Part shown: one piece after another, positions 2,697-22,246 of the stretch
Numbering within the stretch: position 1 is the first letter of the stretch
Layout of the letters: each line of letters starts with the position of its first letter
Assembly (NCBI GenBank): GCA_919903025.1
Contig: CAKKSE010000035.1
Span: forward strand, 1-42,486
Origin: Nitrospiria bacterium
GTDB lineage: Bacteria; Nitrospirota; RBG-16-64-22
Length of the DNA stretch: 42,486 nucleotides
Direction of reading: 5' to 3'
The notes under the pieces: model-generated
Seen by the model: only the letters and a program-made list of their open reading frames with translations
Told to the model about the DNA's origin: nothing
Database searches by the model: none
Translations under genes and position numbers: made by a program

Positions 2697-3398
2697 ATGC
2701 CGCGCGAGCGCTGGAGACTCATCATCGAGCGAATTCCCGAGCCGGGGCCGGTCCAGATGGCCCGGGACGAGGCCCACGCCCGGCTGGCCTCCGCCTCACC
2801 GCCCACGCTCCGCCTCTATCGCTGGAGCGAGCCGACCGTCTCGATCGGGCGGTTCCAGCAGTGGCGCATCGTTGCCTCCGCGCCGGAATTCTCGGGTTTT
2901 CCGCTCGTCCGGCGCCCCTCGGGAGGCCGCGCTCTCGTTCACGGGGAGGACCTGAGCTTTGCCGTAACGGTTCCGCGGTCGCACTCTCTGGCCGGCCTCT
3001 CGGTTGCGGAGAGCTGCCGGGTCCTTGCGGCCGGTCTCGTTCGGGGTCTGCGGGCGCTCCGCCTCGACGTGGAGGCCGTGCGGCGGCCGGAACGCGCGCG
3101 TTCGCATTCCCTCTCGTGCCGCGAGGCGTTCTCTCCTTACGAGATCTCGTGCAATTCGGAGAAGGTCGTTGGAAGCGCCCAATGGCGGCCGGAAGCGGGC
3201 TTCCTCCAGCACGGCTCAGTCTTTCCCTCGGTGGTCGCGGGCGGATGGGAGGGGGTTGCGCGGGTGATCGTGTCCGGACTGGAGGAAGAGATGGGGATCG
3301 GGTTCGAAACGGGCGAAGCGACGGAGGACGAAGCAGTCCTGGCAGAAAGGCTCGCCAGCGAGAAGTACGGCGCCGGGGGGTGGAACGAAGAGCGGTAG
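2697..3398 (+). CDS. LipM/LplA-family octanoyltransferase or lipoate-protein ligase
   Basis: Belongs to the biotin/lipoate A/B protein ligase fold that attaches octanoyl or lipoyl groups to lipoyl domains of 2-oxoacid dehydrogenases or GcvH. The 233 residues include RWSEPTVSIGRFQ, the acyl-adenylate/acyl-binding block RRPSGGRALVHGEDLSFAV, and SEKVVGSAQWR followed by LQHGSV. A cysteine in the LSCREAF stretch aligns with the catalytic cysteine of LipM octanoyltransferases, which use a thioester intermediate. That favours LipM over a true LplA, but the small C-terminal domain cannot be judged. The gene is divergent from yicC. Its last about 55 bases recur almost exactly at 4290-4350 (see the repeat entries). 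No lipA or lipB is visible in the window. Confidence 0.85.
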   Translation: MPRERWRLIIERIPEPGPVQMARDEAHARLASASPPTLRLYRWSEPTVSIGRFQQWRIVASAPEFSGFPLVRRPSGGRALVHGEDLSFAVTVPRSHSLAGLSVAESCRVLAAGLVRGLRALRLDVEAVRRPERARSHSLSCREAFSPYEISCNSEKVVGSAQWRPEAGFLQHGSVFPSVVAGGWEGVARVIVSGLEEEMGIGFETGEATEDEAVLAERLASEKYGAGGWNEER

Positions 3399-3400
3399 GA
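3341..3400. repeat. Direct repeat copy 1: 3' end of the lipM-like gene
   Basis: This 60-bp stretch covers the last coding bases of the lipM-like gene and its stop codon. It recurs at 4290-4350 with three substitutions and one single-base insertion. The longest exact block is CCAGCGAGAAGTACGGCGCC, then one mismatch, then GGGGGTGGAACGAAGAGCGG followed by TAGGA. The vapBC pair lies between the two copies. The intact gene end belongs to this copy; the other copy is not attached to a reading frame. Confidence 0.85.
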
Positions 3401-3444
3401 TCCCCGGCAGAGGGAGTCAGAAGGAGATACGGTCGGCCTGATGC

Positions 3445-3867
3445 CTATTTTGCGGTCCATTCGGCCAAGTCCACGATATGACCGAGGCGTTTCGCCCTGG
3501 AGAAGTACCGCTGATCGGCGGTCACGAGGAGACCGTCGTGCTCCAGCGCAACGGCGTGATAGAGGGTGTCGAAGAGATGCTCGCCGAGATTCGAAGCCAG
3601 GGCTGCGGCGGTCTTGTAGATCGCCGGCTCGTCCGCTTCGTCGAACTCCAACGCGTGCAGGAGATCAACCGCCCGCGGGGCAATGTGAGGAGAAAGGCGT
3701 GCAATGACGGCGACGACTTCGGCGAGCCAGTGGGCCGGTTGCAACGGCTCCACCTCACCGTTCCGGATCCCCTCTAGGAGGCGGAGTGCCCGGTCGACAT
3801 GCGGCTCCTTCTCCGGTTCTGGGAAGAACCATTTGACAACGACACTTGCATCCACGGCAGCGATCAC
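3445..3867 (-). CDS. vapC: PIN-domain ribonuclease toxin (VapC family)
   Basis: PIN-domain proteins are Mg-dependent RNases, and VapC toxins usually cut initiator tRNA or rRNA. The 140-residue protein starts with the acidic motif AAVDASVVVKWFF (first catalytic Asp). An internal LAEVVAVIARL supplies the conserved Glu. LFDTLYHAVALEHDGLLVTAD contains the two later Asp residues (FDTLYHA and TAD). All four PIN acidic positions are therefore seen. Its ATG overlaps the antitoxin stop (ATGA), typical of vapBC. The pair lies between the lipM-like gene and a duplicate of that gene's end, which suggests acquisition as a unit. Confidence 0.9.
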   Translation of the reverse strand: MIAAVDASVVVKWFFPEPEKEPHVDRALRLLEGIRNGEVEPLQPAHWLAEVVAVIARLSPHIAPRAVDLLHALEFDEADEPAIYKTAAALASNLGEHLFDTLYHAVALEHDGLLVTADQRYFSRAKRLGHIVDLAEWTAK

Positions 3868-4097
3868 GGACGCCCCTTTACCCGGACCTGCCGAACGCGC
3901 CCTTCCGAAACCGGGCGCTGAGTGCGGCGAATTGCGAGCACCGCGGCGATCGCAGCCACACGCCGGCGTCGGCGCTCGCGCTCCCCGACGGCCTCTTTCA
4001 TGAGCCGCGAGAGAACGGCGCTCTTGTTCTCACCGGCGAACGCCTTGTTGAAAGCCTCCTTGATCTTGTCCGGAACGCTGAAGTTGACGGTCGCCAT
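3864..4097 (-). CDS. vapB: Antitoxin of the VapC toxin (ribbon-helix-helix type, probable)
   Basis: A 77-residue basic protein that begins ATVNFSVPDKIKEAFNKAF, the beta-strand plus helix pattern of ribbon-helix-helix repressors, followed by a second helix and the RERRRRRVAAIAAVL region. TA antitoxins of this kind bind their promoter through the N-terminus and the toxin through the C-terminus. It precedes vapC with a 4-bp overlap. A good ribosome-binding site (GAGGAGGG) precedes the ATG. The RHH call rests on the N-terminal pattern and the context, not on a strong signature. Confidence 0.8.
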   Translation of the reverse strand: MATVNFSVPDKIKEAFNKAFAGENKSAVLSRLMKEAVGERERRRRRVAAIAAVLAIRRTQRPVSEGRVRQVRVKGRP

Positions 4098-4131
4098 CGC
4101 ACCCTCCTCATTGGTGATCTTTTCAATAACA

Positions 4132-4161
4132 AGAATACACCACGCCCCCCTGCCTTGTCAT
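4132..4161 (-). promoter_or_regulatory. Possible vapBC promoter
   Basis: On the minus strand ATGACA (4161-4156) and TATTCT (4137-4132) are separated by 18 bp and lie 35 nt upstream of vapB. The match is moderate. The rest of 4162-4289 holds no gene or clear signal that I can recognise. Confidence 0.35.
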
Positions 4162-4289
4162 CTCTCCATCGGCCCGCCAGCGTTGGCAGGAGTGAGGGAC
4201 GGGAGGGGAGCCGGCCGGGTTCATACGCGCGCTAATGCCCGTTGGGTCTCCGTCCTGAGGCAATATCGCGGTACGAGCTAGTGTGCGAC

Positions 4290-4350
4290 GGCCGAAAGGG
4301 CTCTCCAGCGAGAAGTACGGCGCCAGGGGGTGGAACGAAGAGCGGTAGGA
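4290..4350. repeat. Direct repeat copy 2: orphan copy of the lipM gene end
   Basis: Near-identical to 3341-3400 and in the same orientation, 950 bp downstream, but not part of an open gene. It differs by an extra G and three substitutions. With copy 1 it brackets the vapBC module. Similarity stops sharply after TAGGA on the right and near GGCCGAAAGG on the left. Between this copy and the higBA promoter (4351-4470) I see nothing. Confidence 0.85.
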
Positions 4351-4470
4351 GCGGTTCCCTCCAATACGCCCGCCCTCCCCGCCCCGCAACTTGAACCAAC
4401 GCCCCCCTTGGAATCCCCGTACCCGATATTGTCCACTTAGCCAACACCCCCCGCCGTGCCCCAAAAATCC

Positions 4471-4499
4471 TTGCATCATATATCGTCATGCGATATATT
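4471..4499 (+). promoter_or_regulatory. higBA promoter with embedded operator palindrome
   Basis: TTGCAT (4471-4476), a 17-bp spacer and TATATT (4494-4499) form a good sigma-70 promoter. An 8+8 inverted repeat, ATATATCG (4478-4485) and CGATATAT (4491-4498) with a 5-bp centre, fills the spacer and overlaps the -10 box. This is where a HigA-type repressor would act. The expected transcription start lies at about 4506-4507, on the higB GTG, which suggests a leaderless message. Confidence 0.65.
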
Positions 4500-4506
4500 C
4501 ACGGCC

Positions 4507-4797
4507 GTGATCCGGATCTTCGCGGACAGGACGACCGCCGACATTTACGATGGGACCAACAGCCGGGCGGCTCGCAGAGTTCCGAAGGAGCTTCATGAAA
4601 AGGCCCGGCGTCTATTGGACCAGATCAATGCGGCTCCAACCGTGGACTTTCTTCGGACCCCGCCGGGCAACCGCCTGGAGAAGCTTCGCGGCAGTCTCGC
4701 CGGCTTCTGGAGCATCCGGATCAACGACCAATGGCGCATCGTCTTTCGCTGGGAGGAAAGGGATGCCGCAAGTGTGCGGATCCTAGACTACCACTGA
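4507..4797 (+). CDS. higB: HigB/RelE-superfamily mRNA interferase toxin
   Basis: HigB toxins cleave mRNA on the ribosome. The 96-residue protein from the GTG at 4507 reads MIRIFADRTTADIYDG, then RVPKELHEKARRLLDQI, FLRTPPGNRLEKLRG and WSIRINDQWRIVFRW. These are the expected blocks of the HigB ('plasmid maintenance killer') family, including the late basic and aromatic residues. An upstream ATG at 4456 gives a longer frame but would lie upstream of the promoter and adds unrelated residues, so I reject it. The toxin precedes the antitoxin, the usual higBA order, with a 2-bp gap. Confidence 0.9.
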   Translation: MIRIFADRTTADIYDGTNSRAARRVPKELHEKARRLLDQINAAPTVDFLRTPPGNRLEKLRGSLAGFWSIRINDQWRIVFRWEERDAASVRILDYH

Positions 4798-4799
4798 GG

Positions 4800-5099
4800 A
4801 TGACAACCATGCTTCCGAGACACCGACCACCCACAAGTCCAGGCCAGATGCTCCTCAAGGAGTTCCTTGAGCCGCTCGGCGTTACCCAGAAGACGTTCGC
4901 TCGCCACCTTAAATGGACTTACGCCCGACTCAACGAGATCGTCAACGGGAAGCGGCGCGTGACGGCCGAGTCCGCCCTCGCGATCGGCGAGGCCCTCGGA
5001 ACGGGACCTGAGTTCTGGCTCAACCTCCAGCGCGACTTCGACCTGTGGCACTCCCTTCGAAGCCATCGAACGGTCCCCCTTCTCAAGAAAGTCGCCTAG
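4800..5099 (+). CDS. higA: HigA family antitoxin (XRE helix-turn-helix)
   Basis: A 99-residue protein typical of HigA. SPGQMLLKEFLEPLGVTQ opens the domain. The XRE helix-turn-helix spans about residues 25-65 (FARHLKWTYARLNEIVNGK, then AESALAIGEALG). The family signature PEFWLNLQRDFDLW follows. It neutralises HigB and represses the operon through its helix-turn-helix, most likely at the ATATATCG/CGATATAT palindrome upstream of higB. The ATG lies 2 bp after the higB stop. Confidence 0.93.
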   Translation: MTTMLPRHRPPTSPGQMLLKEFLEPLGVTQKTFARHLKWTYARLNEIVNGKRRVTAESALAIGEALGTGPEFWLNLQRDFDLWHSLRSHRTVPLLKKVA

Positions 5100-5421
5100 C
5101 ACAGAAATCCTTATCCCCCTCCGTTTGATCTCCGAGACGACGACTAAACGGAACACTGCCGCCGCGACCGGGCAGGCACCGTGAACATCGGCGAGCAGGA
5201 CGAGCCTAGACCAGAAAAATGCATCCGCGATAGACGACGCCCGCTGCGGACGGGCGGAGGGGACGTAGTTGACCAAATGGACAAGTGCCATCTCGTCTCG
5301 TTACTTTGGAACCGGACGGACCGCGTTGCCATCACAGACAACCTTCTCATCCTCTCCCGTTGGCCTCCGTTGCCCGAGCATACCTGAGGGATTGGAAACC
5401 CCTCATTCCCAATCGGTACAT
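5100..5421. other. 322-bp stretch without a recognisable gene
   Basis: Open frames exist on both strands, for example 5181-5387 plus and 5144-5425 minus. None has a ribosome-binding site or residue pattern that I recognise, and they contradict each other. The stretch separates higBA from the convergent HEPN remnant and may hold degenerate sequence from an earlier insertion. Confidence 0.4.
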
Positions 5422-5853
5422 TCACTGCCTCCTCAGTGCGCCTCTCTCGGCAAGCTCCTTGCGAATCGCCCTGCGCGCTCGGGAGGCGATCTCGATGGCC
5501 TCGACCGCCTCCCTCCGGCTCACCCTCTCACTTTCACCGGGATAGCGGGTTGTGATGGCATAAGGCGTGAGCGTCTCGGCATCTTCAAGAGCGGAAAGCC
5601 GACTTGCGGATGCGGCACAAAGCTCCAGAAGGCGGGCGATGTTGTGGGTATACGGGAAGTCCACGCCCTCGAAGACGAGGAAAGCCTTGAGGTATTTCTC
5701 GGCGCACTACTGGGCGTGATAGGCGATCAGTCGATACGGACAGGCGCTCTTGAGGGCAAGCCCGTGCCTTGCCAGCCGCAGATCCTCATCGGCCGCCCTA
5801 GCCCACTCTTTAACCTTTCGAAGCCGCTCTTTTTCTTCTTTCGCGCCTGGCAT
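5422..5853 (-). pseudogene. HEPN-domain protein interrupted by an in-frame amber codon
   Basis: Reading from the ATG at 5853 gives a normal small HEPN protein (143 codons). It has a helical N-terminus (KVKEWARAADEDLRLARHG), then RLIAYHAQ, a TAG at 5707-5709, and CAEKYLKAFLVFEG. After that come FPYTHNIARLLELC and a C-terminus with TTRYPGESE followed by AVEAIEIASRARRAI. HEPN relatives normally read YHAQQCAEK here, so one CAG-to-TAG change explains the stop. HEPN proteins paired with a nucleotidyltransferase act as RNase toxins that the partner AMPylates. The 5' end overlaps the nucleotidyltransferase gene by 44 bp, the standard MNT/HEPN arrangement. A sequencing error or amber suppression are alternatives to true inactivation. 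Confidence 0.85.
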
Positions 5854-6157
5854 AAAGAATTCTTCCCTCCCTCCATGCGGGACGGGCGACGGTGCCGGGG
5901 ATGTTACGGTCGCGCTCGAACTCTTCGGGAGTCAGGACGATGATGTCCCTCGCGAACCCGAGGCCCCTCAGGGAACGATCCATGGCCACCGTGAGCGCGC
6001 GCCGCTTGCCCCGCACCGGGCACACGACGAGAAGATCCACATCGCTCCGCTCATCCGCTGTTCCTCGGGCTTGCGAACCAAACAGAACAATCCGCTGAGG
6101 ATCAAATCCATCCACCAGCCGCCGCGTAGCCCGCGTAAGTGTTCGCTTGCTAATCAT
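5810..6157 (-). CDS. MNT-type nucleotidyltransferase (antitoxin partner of HEPN)
   Basis: A 115-residue minimal nucleotidyltransferase. The core motif FGSQARGTADERSDVDLLVV (about residues 25-45) contains the GSxxRG loop and the two metal-binding aspartates. A third acidic position probably lies in the RDIIVLTPEEF strand. In characterised MNT/HEPN pairs the enzyme adds AMP to the HEPN toxin. The downstream HEPN gene overlaps it but carries an amber codon, so the antitoxin may now lack an active partner. Confidence 0.88.
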   Translation of the reverse strand: MISKRTLTRATRRLVDGFDPQRIVLFGSQARGTADERSDVDLLVVCPVRGKRRALTVAMDRSLRGLGFARDIIVLTPEEFERDRNIPGTVARPAWREGRILYARRERRKRAASKG

Positions 6158-6240
6158 TCGGCATCCCCATTCAGTCCCGGCCCCTTACCTTACAGCCTGC
6201 AGCGCATATCCGCAACCATTCCAGCTGACGCCCGGGGGGA

Positions 6241-6275
6241 ACGGCCGGCGGGGGGACCCGGCCGTTTTTGTTTTG
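6241..6275 (+). terminator. Orphan intrinsic terminator on the plus strand
   Basis: ACGGCCGG (6241-6248) pairs perfectly with CCGGCCGT (6258-6265) and is followed by TTTTGTTTTG. This is a convincing Rho-independent terminator for plus-strand transcription. The nearest upstream plus-strand gene is higA, over 1.1 kb away, with two minus-strand genes between. It may serve a transcript I cannot identify or be left from a lost gene. Confidence 0.65.
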
Positions 6276-6312
6276 TCAAGGCATGGTCCTCCTGAACGCT
6301 GGGGGAGACGAA

Positions 6313-6413
6313 TGGGACATCGTGGGACATCGGGGACGTTGACGCTTTCGGTGGGACATCGGGTGGGGTGGGACATCGGGGATGGGACATCGGGGACGTT
6401 GACGCTTTCGGTG
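6313..6413. repeat. Intergenic direct repeats built on GGGACATCG
   Basis: A 30-bp unit (GGGACATCGGGGACGTTGAC plus GCTTTCGGTG) occurs at 6324-6353 and 6384-6413, exactly 60 bp apart. GGGACATCG also occurs alone at about 6314, 6353 and 6371, giving five copies in 100 bp. No reading frame or cas gene is associated. Similar short repeats occur as remnants of small mobile elements, but no transposase is visible here. The rest of 6158-6589 has no gene. Confidence 0.75.
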
Positions 6414-6589
6414 CGTTGTGCTTCCCGCCCTTTTTTCGGGTGGAGGATCGCCGTCCAACCGCCTCTGTCACCTGTCACCCGCGAGTCCGGCCTTTCTCCA
6501 GGAGGTTCAAGAACCCAGCCTTGAGACGCCTCCGTCCACGAAACCGGGGCGGCTCCAATGATGGCCCAGGAGTCTTGCGCTCCGCACTC

Positions 6590-6634
6590 TTGACGCGGAC
6601 GGAGCCGACCTGGTAATATTGTATTACGTAATAC
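6590..6634 (+). promoter_or_regulatory. mazEF promoter and palindromic operator
   Basis: TTGACG (6590-6595), an 18-bp spacer and TAATAT (6614-6619) make a good promoter. Overlapping and following the -10 box is the perfect 14-bp palindrome GTATTACGTAATAC (6621-6634). A second interleaved inverted repeat, TAATA-TTG-TATTA, starts at 6614. This is the expected position for autorepression by the AbrB-type antitoxin encoded 21 bp downstream. Confidence 0.65.
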
Positions 6635-6654
6635 GAGAACCTGCGGAGGCTCCC

Positions 6655-6900
6655 ATGTCCACCCTGACCGTCACCAAGCTTACATCCAAGTGCCAGACGA
6701 CCGTTCCCGAGAAGATCCGGAAAGTCCTGGGCCTTGGCCCCGGAGATTCCGTGACCTTCGTGGTCGTCTCGGAGAAGGAAGGCAAGGTCCTCGTCCGGAA
6801 GGCCACGCCGATCGACCTCGAATTCGCCCGGGCGCTCGAGGGAACGCTTGCGGCCGAATGGCTCTCGAAAAACGACGACCAGGCGTACCGTGACCTTTGA
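6655..6900 (+). CDS. MazE/AbrB-family antitoxin
   Basis: An 81-residue protein with the swapped-hairpin DNA-binding fold of AbrB/MazE: TVTKLTSKCQTTVPEKIRKV, then LGLGPGDSVTFVV. The acidic C-terminal tail (WLSKNDDQAYRDL) would bind the toxin. The ATG at 6655 has GGAGG 6 nt upstream and lies just past the operator. An in-frame start at 6619 would fall inside the -10 box and is rejected. It overlaps mazF by 11 bp, so the two are translationally coupled. Confidence 0.88.
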   Translation: MSTLTVTKLTSKCQTTVPEKIRKVLGLGPGDSVTFVVVSEKEGKVLVRKATPIDLEFARALEGTLAAEWLSKNDDQAYRDL

Positions 6901-7237
6901 AGCGTTCGACGTGGTCGCGGTCCCCTTTCCCTTCGTGGACCGGAAGGCGCAGAAGCGCCGGCCGGCGCTCGTCCTGTCCCGGAGCGAATCGCTGGGAAAA
7001 GTCGGGCACTCCGTTCTCGCCATGATCACCTCTCGCAAGAACGCTCCTTGGCCCCTCGACGTGCCGATCTCCGGCGAAGCCGAGGCCGGCCTCGCGGCTC
7101 CCTCCGTTGTCCGAATGAAGATCTTTACGCTCGACAACCGCCTTATCCTGAAGAAACTGGGCCGTCTCTCCAGGCCCGACCGAATCGCCGTCCAGTCCGC
7201 GCTCGGCCGGCTCCTTGTCCTTAAGGAACCCGGCTGA
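6890..7237 (+). CDS. MazF/PemK-family endoribonuclease toxin
   Basis: A 115-residue protein starting at a GTG inside the antitoxin gene. The family features are the N-terminal FDVVAVPFPFVDRKAQKRRPALVLS (split here by the loop that binds RNA), VLAMITSRKN with the conserved Ser/Thr, and the C-terminal LAAPSVVRMKIFTLDNRLI region followed by the final helix. MazF toxins cleave mRNA at short specific sequences. The protein looks complete and uninterrupted, unlike the HEPN genes on either side. Confidence 0.88.
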   Translation: MTFEAFDVVAVPFPFVDRKAQKRRPALVLSRSESLGKVGHSVLAMITSRKNAPWPLDVPISGEAEAGLAAPSVVRMKIFTLDNRLILKKLGRLSRPDRIAVQSALGRLLVLKEPG

Positions 7238-7278
7238 TCCTGGCACCCCGCCACATCCGCAACCACCACGAGTATCGA

Positions 7279-7581
7279 TCAGAGATCTGTGTCGGGTCTA
7301 TTTCGATGAAGCTCCGTCCACTCGCTGAGCGGTACGAACTCGGGCTCTTTCGCGCTGTCCTTCCAATGCCACCACCCTCCCGCCTCTTCCGCGAGCCATG
7401 ACAGGACATCGATGTCGGGCAGGTTCGCTCGCTCCGAATCTGAGGCGGGCTCGGCGCCGCTCCGACGGCGCAACACCCAATCCCACAACGTAAATTCGAG
7501 CCCGGTGAGCCAGCCGGCGCACCAGTTCTCCTCGGAGAGGTGCCGCAAATAGACCAAGAGCGCACGCTGTGACGCTTGCAT
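7279..7581 (-). CDS. Hypothetical tryptophan-rich 100-residue protein
   Basis: I do not recognise a named family. The 100-residue product begins MQASQRALLVYLRHLSEENW and continues with GWLTGLEFTLWDWVL. After a variable stretch it has LSWLAEEAGGWWHW and ends with FVPLSEWTELH. Seven tryptophans in 100 residues and an amphipathic N-terminal helix suggest a folded soluble protein. A GAGGGG ribosome-binding site precedes the ATG. It starts 14 bp after the stop of the frameshifted HEPN gene and may be its operon partner. Coding character (regular hydrophobic pattern, ribosome-binding site, tight spacing) makes a real gene likely. Confidence 0.65.
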   Translation of the reverse strand: MQASQRALLVYLRHLSEENWCAGWLTGLEFTLWDWVLRRRSGAEPASDSERANLPDIDVLSWLAEEAGGWWHWKDSAKEPEFVPLSEWTELHRNRPDTDL

Positions 7582-7594
7582 TCGATCCCCTCGG

Positions 7595-8132
7595 TCAGCG
7601 AGGCCCCGCTCCGAATACTCCGACGGTCTTCCCGCCGTAGACGATCGTGAACCCGCGGAGCGGTTCGAGATCGGGAACCTCCTCCAGCCTCCGAAACATC
7701 CCCAGAACTTGGTCCTCGCCGAACGCCCGGTGCCGGCGGATCTCGATGCGGCCTTTGTAGACAACGACGGCCACCTTGGCGAGGAGATCGGATGCCGCCT
7801 TCCGGTCCGTCTTTCTCGCAAGGGCCATGATCTCCGGCGGATAGCGGCTCTGTAAATAGTACAACGACAACCGCTCCAGGAAACGCTTTTTCTTCGGCCG
7901 AGAGCCCCATTTCGGCCACTCCTTCCAGGCGCAACAGATCGTGAATCCTGGGAGGGAATACCCCCCTTCGCGCGATGACGCAGGCTTTCAGGAGCTTCTC
8001 GAGAGATTGCTGGCACATAAAGAGCACGTAAAGATAGCGGCGTGCTCCGAGCATCGCTTGGGCGGTTGCCAAGTCATAGCGGGACGCTTCAATCCACGCG
8101 CGGGCGTCTTTGACCGGGACACCTGTCATCAT
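7595..8132 (-). pseudogene. HEPN-domain protein with a +1 frameshift
   Basis: The N-terminal part reads PVKDARAWIEASRYDLATAQ, then RYLYVLFMCQQSLEKLLKAC and FPPRIHDLLRL, a standard HEPN-domain helix set. The frame is lost after LSAEEKAF. It resumes one base further on as LERLSLYYLQSRYPPEI, the expected continuation with the YLQSRYP motif. Removing one C at about 7879-7880 restores the gene. The restored C-terminus is longer than in minimal HEPN proteins by about 55 unrecognised residues. The start is at one of two adjacent ATGs (8132 or 8129). No nucleotidyltransferase partner is visible. A sequencing error is the main alternative to a true pseudogene. Confidence 0.75.
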
Positions 8133-8305
8133 GCACCCGCTTGTTCTGAGGTTGGACAAACCCGAGCCGGGCGGTTCTTGGTTCGGGCCGTCAGCCCGCC
8201 TCGATTTCGATTCTATACTGCAACGACCTGCTCCACAAGATCATCCGTTCGCGATGTGTCCGGGAAGCGCATCATTCGATGTTGCAGGCCGGGATTCTGC
8301 GGATT

Positions 8306-8319
8306 CCGGGACGTCCCGG
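8306..8319. repeat. 14-bp palindrome in the HEPN/mutS spacer
   Basis: CCGGGACGTCCCGG is a perfect inverted repeat in the 241-bp spacer downstream of mutS. There is no T-run on either side, so it is not a typical intrinsic terminator. The rest of 8133-8373 contains nothing I can assign. Confidence 0.4.
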
Positions 8320-8373
8320 CTTATGCCGCGTGTTCCCCTTAACGGGTCTTGTTCAGAGTCTCTGTCCACTCGG

Positions 8374-11007
8374 TTATCCTCCACTCCTCCACTTGTGGAG
8401 CAGATTCAGCGCCTCGATCGGGGTCAGGCGTTCCAGGTCCAGGCTGTCGAGCTCACGGGCGATCCGGTCTTCCTTTTCGCCGAACAGGTTGAGCTGGGGC
8501 GGGCCGGAGGGTTGTCCCGTCCCTTCGGCGCGGCGCGCGAGGCGCGGCTCGCCGTTCGACGTGATCGCTGAGGCTTCGAGGTTGGCCAGGATCTCCCGCG
8601 CCCGGGCGATGACGGGTTCCGGCAGGCCCGCGAGCCGCCCGACGTGGATCCCGTAGCTCTTGTCGGCGCCCCCTTCCTCGATCTTGTGCAGGAAAACGAT
8701 CTGGTCCCCCCATTCGCGGACGGAGACCCGGTGATTGAGGACGCCCTCGCAGGTGAGCGGAAGTTCCGTAAGCTCGTGATAGTGCGTGGCGAAGAGCGTG
8801 CGGGCGCGGAGGCGTCCCGCAAGGTCCTCGGCCACGGCCCAGGCGATCCCCACGCCGTCGAACGTCGACGTGCCCCGGCCGATCTCGTCGAGGATGACCA
8901 GACTCCGATCGGTGGCCTGACGGAGGACCTGTGCCGTCTCGGCCATCTCGACCATGAAGGTGCTCTGGCCGCGCGAGATGTAGTCAGTCGCGCCGATCCG
9001 GGTGAAGATGCGGTCAACGACGCCGATCCGCGCGGCGGCGGCGGGGACGGGCGCTCCCGCCTGGGCCAGGACGACGATCAGGGCGACCTGCCGCATGTAG
9101 GTCGACTTCCCGGCCATGTTAGGCCCCGTGATGACGTGGATCGGCGCTTGGGGCGCGAGGCGCGTGTCGTTCGGCACGAACCGGTCGGATCCGAGCGCCT
9201 CGACGACCGGGTGACGGCCGTCCTGGATCTCGATCTCGCGCGAGTCGTCGACCGTCGGAAGGACGTAATTCCGCCGGACACCGGTCTCCGCCAGAGCGGA
9301 GAGGCAGTCGAGACCGGCCACGGCGCGGGCCGTTCGCTGGATCCGGGCGGCTGACTGCGTGACGGCGGCGCAGAGCCCCTGGAACAGATCGTACTCGCGG
9401 AGAGCGATCTTTTCGTCGGCCCCGACGACCTGCTCTTCGAACTCCTTCAGTTCCGGGGTCGTGAATCGTTCCGCGCCGACGAGCGTCTGCTTCCGCATGT
9501 AGTCGCTCGGAACGCGTTCCTGCTGGGCCTTCGTCACCTCGATATAGTAGCCGAACACGCGGTTGTACCGGACCTTGAGCGAAGGGATCCCCGTCCGTTC
9601 CCGCTCCCGCCTCTCGATCTCGGCGATCATCCCCCGCCCCGCTCGGCCGATCTCCCGAAGAGCGTCGAGCGCCGCGTCCCAGCCGGGCCGGATCATCCCT
9701 CCCTCGCGGACAGTCGCGGGTGGGTCGTCAATCAGGGCGCGGGAGAGCAGGTCCGCCAGGTCGGGGATCGCATCAAGGCTCTCGCCGAAGGGGTCGAGCG
9801 GACCGGGTCCCGCCGTCTCCAAAACAGCGATCAGTCTCGGGACGGCCGCCATTGAGGCGCGGAGCGCCGCCAGATCCCGCGCGCCGGCCGTGCCCATCGT
9901 CACGCGGGCCAGCAGGCGTTCGAGATCGAGGACCTCCGGCAGAACGCCTCGAATGCCCTGCCTGATCCCCCCCTCCTCCATGAAGGTCCGAACGCCGGCC
10001 TGACGCTCGCGGATCGCGGCGACGTCGGTCAGCGGAGCGTGAAGCCATTCACGGATGAGCCGGGCGCCCATGGCGGTCCTCGTCTCGTCCATGACCGAAA
10101 GGAGCGATCCCCGGGGCGAGCCGTCATACAGGGACCGCGATATTTCAAGGGTCCGGATGGCGTTCGCGTCGAGGACGGGAACGGAATCCCGAACGAACCG
10201 GATCTCGCGGACATGGCTCAGCTCCCGCATCTGGGTCTCGCGGGCGTAGGAGACGGCCGCCGAAGCCGCCCCGACGGAGAGATCGTGTCCGGCCAGACCA
10301 AACGGTTCGAGCGTCGCCACGCCGAACTGGTCCTTCAGGCGGGACTCCCCCGTCGCCGAATCGAACCGGGCCGCCGGCCAGCGCGTGATCGTCGCCCCCC
10401 ATTCGGCCGCGGCCGCGGCGACGGCCGGGTCCGGCTCCCCCCTGTCCGGGACCAGGACTTCGGCCGGCCTGTGCCGATCGAGGAACAGAATCCCCTCCCG
10501 AACGCTTTCCTGCTCAGCCGCGAGAAGACGCCCCGTCGACAGATCGAGAAGGGCCAGGCCCGCGCGGCCGCCGCGGTCGAGGAAGGCGGCCAGGCTCCTC
10601 GATTCCCGCGCGTCGAGGAGGGCGGGATCGAGGGCCGTTCCCGGCGTGACGACGCGCACGACCTCGCGGCGGACGATCCCCTTCGCCTGCCGGGGGTCCT
10701 CGACTTGGTCGCAGACGGCCACGCGGTAACCCCGGTTGACCAGCTTGGCGAGGTACGCTTCGGCCGCGACGACAGGGACGCCGCACAAGGGAACGGCGTC
10801 CGGGCGTCCCTTGTTCCGGGACGTGAGGGCGATTTCTAGGACGCCCGACGCCGTCACGGCGTCCTCGAAGAACATCTCATAGAAGTCGCCCATCCGGAAG
10901 AAGAGGATGGCGTCCGGGTGCGCCTTCTTGATCTCTTGGTATTGCCGCATGGCCGGCGTCAGGCCGGCGCGGCCGTTAGCCGGGGAACCGGGGACGGAGC
11001 TTCTCAT
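8374..11007 (-). CDS. mutS: DNA mismatch repair protein MutS
   Basis: Recognises mismatches and small loops and recruits MutL. The 877-residue length is typical. The mismatch-wedge motif appears as FFRMGDFYEMFFEDA at about residue 40. The ATPase domain has the Walker A GPNMAGKSTYMRQ at about residue 625, the Walker B ILDEIGRGTSTFDG and the conserved ATHYHEL. The ATG at 11007 overlaps the HIT gene by 32 bp and keeps the family motif LTPAMRQYQEIK, which lies upstream of the next ATG (10950), so I favour the longer form. No mutL is visible in the window. Confidence 0.97.
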   Translation of the reverse strand: MRSSVPGSPANGRAGLTPAMRQYQEIKKAHPDAILFFRMGDFYEMFFEDAVTASGVLEIALTSRNKGRPDAVPLCGVPVVAAEAYLAKLVNRGYRVAVCDQVEDPRQAKGIVRREVVRVVTPGTALDPALLDARESRSLAAFLDRGGRAGLALLDLSTGRLLAAEQESVREGILFLDRHRPAEVLVPDRGEPDPAVAAAAAEWGATITRWPAARFDSATGESRLKDQFGVATLEPFGLAGHDLSVGAASAAVSYARETQMRELSHVREIRFVRDSVPVLDANAIRTLEISRSLYDGSPRGSLLSVMDETRTAMGARLIREWLHAPLTDVAAIRERQAGVRTFMEEGGIRQGIRGVLPEVLDLERLLARVTMGTAGARDLAALRASMAAVPRLIAVLETAGPGPLDPFGESLDAIPDLADLLSRALIDDPPATVREGGMIRPGWDAALDALREIGRAGRGMIAEIERRERERTGIPSLKVRYNRVFGYYIEVTKAQQERVPSDYMRKQTLVGAERFTTPELKEFEEQVVGADEKIALREYDLFQGLCAAVTQSAARIQRTARAVAGLDCLSALAETGVRRNYVLPTVDDSREIEIQDGRHPVVEALGSDRFVPNDTRLAPQAPIHVITGPNMAGKSTYMRQVALIVVLAQAGAPVPAAAARIGVVDRIFTRIGATDYISRGQSTFMVEMAETAQVLRQATDRSLVILDEIGRGTSTFDGVGIAWAVAEDLAGRLRARTLFATHYHELTELPLTCEGVLNHRVSVREWGDQIVFLHKIEEGGADKSYGIHVGRLAGLPEPVIARAREILANLEASAITSNGEPRLARRAEGTGQPSGPPQLNLFGEKEDRIARELDSLDLERLTPIEALNLLHKWRSGG

Positions 11008-20851: not shown

Positions 20852-21499
20852 ATGCGAATCTTCAACCGAACAATTACTGTTCTCTTGGCGGCGCTCGTCC
20901 TTCTGGCGGTCGCCCTCACGGCGGAGGCCCAGCCGCGGATCGCCGTGAAGGATTTCCGGGACAAGAGCGCAAAAGGATACGCGAAGATCGGCGCGGGGAT
21001 GGCGGAGATGCTGGCCACCGCCCTCGTCGAGACGGGAAGATACGTCGTTCTCGAAAGGCAGGCGATCCGGGACGTCCTTGAGGAGCAGGACTTGGGGGCT
21101 TCCGGCCGCGTCAAGAGAGATACGGCCGCGCCCATCGGCGAGATCGAGGGGGCGCAGTACCTGATCTACGGAACGATCACGGAGTTCGAGCCCGATTACC
21201 GCGGGATCGGCGGAGCGGCCGGCATGCCGGGCATCCGGCTCGGAGGAATCGCTGGGGGCGCGAAGCAGTCGCACGTGGCGATCGACCTTCGGATCGTTGA
21301 CGCCAAGACGTCGCGGATCGTCGCCGTCACGAAGGTTGAAGGAAAGGCCACGGACATCGGCGGCGGCATTGGAGGCGTGATCGGCGGCGGAAGGACCACG
21401 ATGCCGCTGGCCCTCGGCGGCTGGGCGAAAACGCCCATGGAGCAGGCGATCCGCGTCTGCATTCAGAATGCCGTCCAATACATTTCGGGAAAGATCTAG
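20852..21499 (+). CDS. CsgG-family protein, non-lipidated paralogue
   Basis: A 215-residue protein with an ordinary signal peptide (VLLAALVLLAVALTAEAQ) and no lipobox cysteine. The mature part has the CsgG/HfaB pattern: RIAVKDFRDKSAKGYAKIG, then GMAEMLATALVETGRYVVLER and YLIYGTITEFEPDY. It ends with LRIVDAKTSRIVAVTKVEGK and a Gly-rich stretch. CsgG proteins form outer-membrane curli secretion channels, but many relatives have other envelope roles. No csgA, csgE or csgF is seen. Its neighbour at 21527 is a close paralogue. Confidence 0.88.
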   Translation: MRIFNRTITVLLAALVLLAVALTAEAQPRIAVKDFRDKSAKGYAKIGAGMAEMLATALVETGRYVVLERQAIRDVLEEQDLGASGRVKRDTAAPIGEIEGAQYLIYGTITEFEPDYRGIGGAAGMPGIRLGGIAGGAKQSHVAIDLRIVDAKTSRIVAVTKVEGKATDIGGGIGGVIGGGRTTMPLALGGWAKTPMEQAIRVCIQNAVQYISGKI

Positions 21500-21526
21500 C
21501 CCAACAGCCAAGGAGGAATAAATTCG

Positions 21527-22246
21527 ATGATTACGAATCAGATGTTTCCGCGCTTCATCGTTGCGGGATTGGGGCTCGTTTTTCTGGCGGCTTCGTGCGC
21601 GCCGACGGCCACGGTCCGCGGCGGCGGCGGGCCGACCGCCGCCCAAGCCGAGGCGGTCCCGTACACGGGTCCCCAGAAGCGGATCGCCGTTAAGAAGTTC
21701 ACCGATAAGTCCGCCAAGGGATACCGGCGGATCGGGGATGGCATGTCCGAGATGCTCGCCACGGCCCTGTTCGAGACGGGACGGTTCATCGTCCTCGAGC
21801 GGCAGGCCCTTCGGGACGTGATGGAGGAGCAGGACCTCGGCGCCTCGGGCCGCGTGCGGAGAGAAACAGCCGCGCCCATCGGCCAGATCGAGGGGGCCCA
21901 GCTCTTGATCTACGGCGCGATCACGGAATTCGAGCCGAACTACCGCGGGATCGGCGGAGGCGCGGCCCTGCCCGGCCTCCGGATCGGCGGGCTCGGCGTC
22001 GGCGTCAAGCAGTCGTACGTCGCGATGGATCTCAGGATCGTGGACGCGAAGACTTCGCGCGTGGTGGCGGTAACGAAAGTCGAAGGGAAGGCCACCGACG
22101 TCGGCGCCGCCGGCGCGGGCGTCATCGGCGGCGGAAGGACCACGATGCCGCTGGCCCTCGGCGGCTGGGCGAAAACGCCCATGGAGCAGGCGATCCGCGT
22201 CTGCATCGAGAACGCCGTGCACTTCATCGTGCAGAGAAGCTTCTAG
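21527..22246 (+). CDS. CsgG-family lipoprotein, tandem paralogue
   Basis: A 239-residue protein with a lipobox (FLAASC) at about residue 24, then a Gly/Ala-rich linker and the CsgG domain (RIAVKKFTDKSAKGYRRIG, MLATALFETGRFIVLER, LLIYGAITEFEPNYRGIG). It closely parallels the upstream gene at protein level. An 83-bp segment near the 3' end (22124-22206) is identical to 21380-21462. The lipidated N-terminus is the usual form for CsgG. AAGGAGG precedes the ATG. A strong terminator follows. Confidence 0.88.
   Translation: MITNQMFPRFIVAGLGLVFLAASCAPTATVRGGGGPTAAQAEAVPYTGPQKRIAVKKFTDKSAKGYRRIGDGMSEMLATALFETGRFIVLERQALRDVMEEQDLGASGRVRRETAAPIGQIEGAQLLIYGAITEFEPNYRGIGGGAALPGLRIGGLGVGVKQSYVAMDLRIVDAKTSRVVAVTKVEGKATDVGAAGAGVIGGGRTTMPLALGGWAKTPMEQAIRVCIENAVHFIVQRSF

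Follow-up and report, generated by a model that had tools for sequence, protein, structure and literature searches.

How did a toxin–antitoxin (TA) pair come to lie between two copies of the end of one gene? The question is raised by a stretch of 42,486 nucleotides from a Nitrospiria bacterium (contig CAKKSE010000035.1, positions 1–42,486), hereafter called the window, in which a first-pass annotation had noticed that 60 bp covering the 3′ end and stop codon of a lipM-like gene recur in the same orientation, with a vapBC pair in between. The features concerned are the following.

2697–3398, plus strand: gene of the lipoate-protein ligase A/B (LplA/LipB) family, here called lipM (PF21948 LplA-B_cat, E = 9.7e-19; PF03099, E = 3.5e-11)
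3341–3400, plus strand: gene-attached copy of the repeat, comprising the last 58 nt of lipM with its stop codon, plus 2 nt
3445–3867, minus strand: VapC-like toxin gene with a PIN domain (PF01850, E = 1.2e-11)
3864–4097, minus strand: ORF of 77 amino acids, putative VapB antitoxin, overlapping vapC by 4 nt
4290–4350, plus strand: orphan copy of the lipM 3′ end
4507–4797, plus strand: HigB-like toxin of the neighbouring TA module (PF05015, E = 3.5e-19)
4809–5099, plus strand: HigA antitoxin (TIGR02607, E = 8.5e-27, above cut-off)
8374–11007, minus strand: mutS, the conserved gene that closes the lipM–mutS gap

The duplication was confirmed, with three substitutions and one indel: positions 3341–3400 and 4290–4350 aligned over 61 columns, 57 of them identical (93.4%), around a core of 55 nt with three mismatches (3346–3400 and 4296–4350), and the copies started about 950 bp apart. 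As the two copies differ at four columns, an assembly duplicate is an unlikely source of the second lipM end. A BLAST search of the 2.86-Mb genome returned the second copy with an E-value of 1.8e-19, and the next best match after the two copies was 21 nt long; the further copies for which the annotation had proposed a search were thus not found, and a dispersed repeat was ruled out. Neither the flanking IS copies nor the dispersed repeat of a composite transposon or IS cargo was detected around this 60-mer with its two genomic copies. The orphan copy is intergenic, lying between the divergent vapBC (minus strand) and higBA (plus strand). Of the pair between the copies, the toxin has the PIN domain expected of VapBC and a Pfam match, whereas the antitoxin matched no Pfam or NCBIfam family and is called VapB from its operon position and size. 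The remark that no integrase was visible in the vapBC unit was borne out, in that only the vapC and vapB-like ORFs fit between the lipM-end copies and no integrase or recombinase was found there.

The gap beyond lipM is crowded. Window positions 3399–8373 form a TA island, with about five modules or remnants in approximately 5 kb (vapBC, higBA, HEPN/MNT, PrlF/MazE-PemK, and a frameshifted HEPN). The HEPN gene at 7595–8159 is broken by an apparent frameshift, and its module looks decayed. Two other direct repeats were observed in the window: a perfect 31-bp repeat at 6323–6413 (TGGGACATCGGGGACGTTGACGCTTTCGGTG), to which related sequences occur on further contigs of this genome, and a repeat of about 556 bp at 20928–22227, with copies 80% identical and 744 bp apart.

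The genus was sampled in three genomes, all of them metagenome-assembled (MAGs). The congener G002 (Nitrospirae bacterium RBG_16_64_22, record MHEK01000079) was collinear with the window through yicC–lipM and mutS and carried a full-length lipM ortholog (77% identical), but its lipM–mutS gap measured 565 bp, compared with 4975 bp in the window, and contained a single lipM end, no vapBC, and one different, lone PIN gene (vapC). G002 is thus the vapBC-free relative with a single copy of the 60 bp for which a search had been suggested, although it is not a clean empty site, with an unrelated vapC occupying the same place. This lone vapC (L039, 5098–6267) has no stop codon of its own near the gene end, and its frame continues through lipM in the antisense direction, as though the junction had truncated its 3′ end. 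In the other congener, G001, collinearity breaks at mutS, and lipM and yicC were looked for and neither was found. The locus had been described as lipM–yicC; lipM stands, but yicC lies on its other side and the insertion point is between lipM and mutS. Because the G002 gap is short and has another PIN gene and a single lipM end, the lipM–mutS gap is recognizable as a TA hot spot, judged by its gene content, and vapBC most likely represents an addition specific to this lineage. The entry of vapBC at the lipM end was therefore supported by a congener with a single copy and no vapBC, by the lack of an integrase, and by a 60-mer that is not dispersed. The companion suggestion, that vapBC is excisable by recombination between the repeats, was not supported: a lipM–higBA junction free of vapBC was not observed, and four alignment columns already distinguish the copies.

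A similar arrangement recurred at other toxin loci. Sampling was confined to PIN and PemK toxins, and a locus was counted as bracketed when a direct repeat of at least 30 bp and 75% identity was found within 2.5 kb. The genus set comprised those PIN/PemK loci of the three genomes, 83 in number, that had 600 bp or more on either side; as controls, 2340 pseudo-positions were taken in random regions totalling 300 kb, and another 300 kb was used for other Nitrospirota. Within the genus, 14 of the 83 loci were bracketed versus 59 of the 2340 random positions (2.5%; Fisher test, 7e-8, or 4e-7 without the window), and in other Nitrospirota, 13 of 60 PIN loci were bracketed versus 53 of 2340 (2.3%; 3e-9), Fisher values that overstate the certainty because the control positions are not independent. 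Many control matches were tandem or dispersed repeats. The control set was also contaminated: the sole clean duplication in the second set (L338, in a single-contig genome) itself brackets another vapBC, at the start of a wzz-like gene. After dispersed and paralogous repeats were removed by hand, about nine genus cases (the window included) and six others were left in this manually curated list. Besides lipM, the duplicated gene ends were as follows.

L181: 3′ end of an alpha/beta hydrolase gene
L123: 3′ end of a phosphonate-binding protein gene
L088: 3′ end of a YggU-family protein gene
L171: 3′ end of an AAA protein gene
L124: 3′ end of a resident vapC
L257: 3′ end of radA (named from its C-terminal sequence and KaiC/ChlI/Lon_C domain matches)
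L300: 3′ end of dnaB
L307: 3′ end of hemB
L255: 3′ end of mogA (named from a MoCF_biosynth match)
L252: 3′ end of a MauG-like gene
L326: 5′ start of hypD
L086: 5′ start of a DUF4178 gene
L338: 5′ start of wzz

The repeats differed between loci in sequence and in length (roughly 40–300 bp), and no conserved att sequence or cassette ends were found among them. The annotation had invoked integrating elements that target gene ends and recreate them. The gene end is indeed recreated, but scars of this kind are found at many different genes, mostly at the 3′ end and sometimes at the 5′ start, with variable length and no integrase, which argues against att-site specificity. It appears from these footprints that, in the genus as in other Nitrospirota, TA modules have repeatedly taken one entry route. 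At L257 (1125–2769), three radA 3′ ends enclose two different TA pairs (Phd-PIN and RHH-PIN), each followed by a radA end; the array is possibly a record of successive acquisitions.

Several loci were set aside, because the copies also occurred elsewhere (L099 and L122), were weak or TPR-like (L130 and L145), looked dispersed (L243 and L316), or had more copies in the genome (L259), or because G001 contained part of the insert (L082). L097 was dropped as a pair of tandem NtrC paralog ends with a TA insertion that was clean against G002. There, G002 (C54) lacks a PIN module that G001 has; the junction is nearly exact and no long repeat accompanies it, which suggests that TA modules are also gained or lost in another way and gives at least one TA insertion without duplication. 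L119 and L123 were retained as ambiguous, their insert being shared with G002, which has one copy only. At L165 and L230 (G001, C133), two species have the same repeat pair with different DNA enclosed. At L155 (1223–2470), the duplicated nadE 3′ end encloses a non-TA gene whose cNMP-binding match is partial and below cut-off; the process is therefore not necessarily confined to TA modules.

Single-copy sites in congeners showed the state without the insert. The long direct repeats that bracket the insert were single-copy in a relative for the window against G002, and cleanly so for L088 and L171. At L088, the left flank, one 91-bp copy, and the right flank are contiguous in G001 (C80), and the flank matches overlap on that copy; at L171, G001 (C136) has one segment of about 305 bp, and the orphan duplicate in G002 carries a deletion of about 172 bp. 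Single copies were also found for L124 in G000 (C213) and L155 in G002 (C91), in both of which the left flank is not conserved, for L086 in G000 (C87), where 160 bp of the left flank differs, and for L252 in 13 congeners. At the examined junctions, the gene side was intact and the far side non-homologous. At lipM, the eight bases past the gene-attached copy resemble the downstream sequence of G002, which complicates the junction model.

We propose, with a probability of about 0.5, that the second lipM end is the scar of the acquisition of vapBC by one-sided homologous recombination with an illegitimate far junction. The incoming DNA would have consisted of the end of a conserved gene joined to a TA module. 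This incoming end would recombine by homology with the resident gene end, leaving the gene intact, and the far side would be joined illegitimately within or beside the resident's own gene end, which would thereby be left past the cassette as the orphan copy. Both the gene end on the donor DNA and the illegitimate nature of one junction are inferred from the footprints. Ku-dependent end joining was rejected as the route, as no Ku gene was matched in the three genomes of the genus.

A possible but less likely explanation is long target duplication, in which the module entered at a break with nicks staggered over a wide distance and the 60-bp target was copied to either side during repair, so that both copies are local and diverged later. 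It accounts for the gene end–insert–gene end structure with a single copy in congeners, it has a precedent in restriction–modification (RM) systems with long, variable duplications of the order of 100 bp (PMC3874152), and it suits the lipM copies, whose mutual identity (93%) exceeds that with the congener (the orphan copy is 88.5% identical to the single lipM end of G002). The lack of Ku for end joining counts against it, as does the distribution of the differences over codon positions. Pooled over 14 cases, the copies differed at codon positions 1/2/3 in the proportions 44/39/110, a departure both from an even distribution (p = 2e-11) and from the 44% that we estimated for one functional and one drifting copy (p = 3.6e-4). 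In about half of the cases, the differences were mainly at third positions, as in mogA (L255, 0/1/13), hemB (L307, 0/1/5), and the MauG-like gene (L252, 2/2/10), and also in hypD and others. Once formed, a local duplicate is free to drift, and strong third-position bias therefore argues against it; in L252, L255, and L307, this bias contradicts a local origin of both copies; it suggests that gene ends of two lineages met by recombination and were not freshly duplicated in place. The L252 gene matched G112 over 1890 bp with 97.9% identity. Its orphan copy, by contrast, was only 82% identical to G112, too divergent for a recent local copy, and grouped among other species of the genus Nitrospira in a small tree with weak support. 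The orphan copy was also the closer of the two to the congener's single copy at L088 (83/91 versus 75/91 for the gene-attached copy) and L124 (72/80 versus 67/80).

Not all cases require a foreign copy, because no third-position bias was present at L181, L124, or wzz (L338, 5/2/1, found later and outside the 14-case pool), and the orphans at L171 and L086 were the more divergent copies. The differences at lipM, wzz, and L181 look neutral, as target duplication would have it, although at lipM (2/0/1 plus an indel) they lack third-position bias in numbers that are uninformative on local versus foreign origin and too few to separate one-sided recombination from local long target duplication. We conclude that a good share of the cases probably brought together gene ends of different lineages; in the remainder, lipM included, local duplication is possible.

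It is doubtful, and improbable in our judgement, that the module arrived as a circular TA intermediate that carried one gene-end copy, integrated by a single crossover in the resident end, and could be re-excised via the repeats. Such a circle would yield direct repeats from two lineages and would explain the two cassettes and three gene ends of the radA array; the last 30 bp or so of the gene-attached copy at L252 are unlike G112, as a crossover inside the repeat would give. However, the orphan copies often have internal deletions, and repeats of 35–120 bp with 5–20% mismatch are poor RecA substrates. That the lipM end was tandemly duplicated first and a TA module landed between the copies by chance is very improbable: tandem paralogous gene ends do exist, and the NtrC genes of L097 had their repeat before the TA arrived, but about 15 toxin loci would each have required the coincidence on their own, the 600 kb of controls had few unique duplications with matched spacing (and one clean case there brackets a vapBC), and the congeners of L088, L171, and L252 are single-copy, with no tandemly duplicated, TA-free intermediate.

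One-sided recombination at gene ends may extend beyond this locus. At slightly under even odds, we suggest that a general mode of entry, independent of any integrase, has carried TA modules across Nitrospirota and perhaps beyond. Conserved housekeeping genes would supply, at their ends, the homology shared between species, and every arrival would add one end; if this is true, stacks such as radA–TA–end–TA–end would be a log of successive arrivals. Type II TA modules abound and their mobility is clear, yet passages of a 2020 review (Fraikin 2020, PMC7167474) state the mechanism of their chromosomal integration as unknown. Bracketing scars hint at how TA modules enter chromosomes without an enzyme of their own. 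A scar marks the entry point, indicates the empty site, and may hold the sequence of two lineages, making the question testable by genome comparison, and it offers a simple filter for acquired TA modules. In the open-access literature, we found no report of duplicated gene ends around TA modules.

Several known systems share parts of this pattern. Site-specific integrative elements restore the 3′ end of a gene on the far side of the insert. The re-creation of a gene end beyond the insert is common to both, but here there is no integrase, the target genes are many, the repeat length varies, and 5′ starts are sometimes used. As in TA islands and plastic TA loci (PMC2701414, PMC7167474), unrelated modules are packed into one intergenic region and differ among relatives; the passages on TA islands in Makarova 2009 (PMC2701414) make no mention of gene-end repeats, and the duplicated gene ends are not described in the corresponding passages of either paper. 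Homology-facilitated illegitimate recombination predicts one homologous and one illegitimate junction and no cargo-coded recombinase (PMC3240628), which may apply to the present loci; it is known from transformation and conjugation experiments, whereas here it would be seen from its genomic footprint alone. The insertion of RM systems with long target duplication, proposed for Helicobacter pylori (Nobusato et al. 2000; Furuta et al. 2010; summarised in PMC3874152 and PMC3031569), likewise involves a transposase-free addiction module between long, variable direct repeats of resident sequence that is single-copy in a relative. It differs in that the cargo here is a type II TA module, the repeats are mostly the ends of conserved genes, and the copies often differ from each other like orthologs of two lineages.
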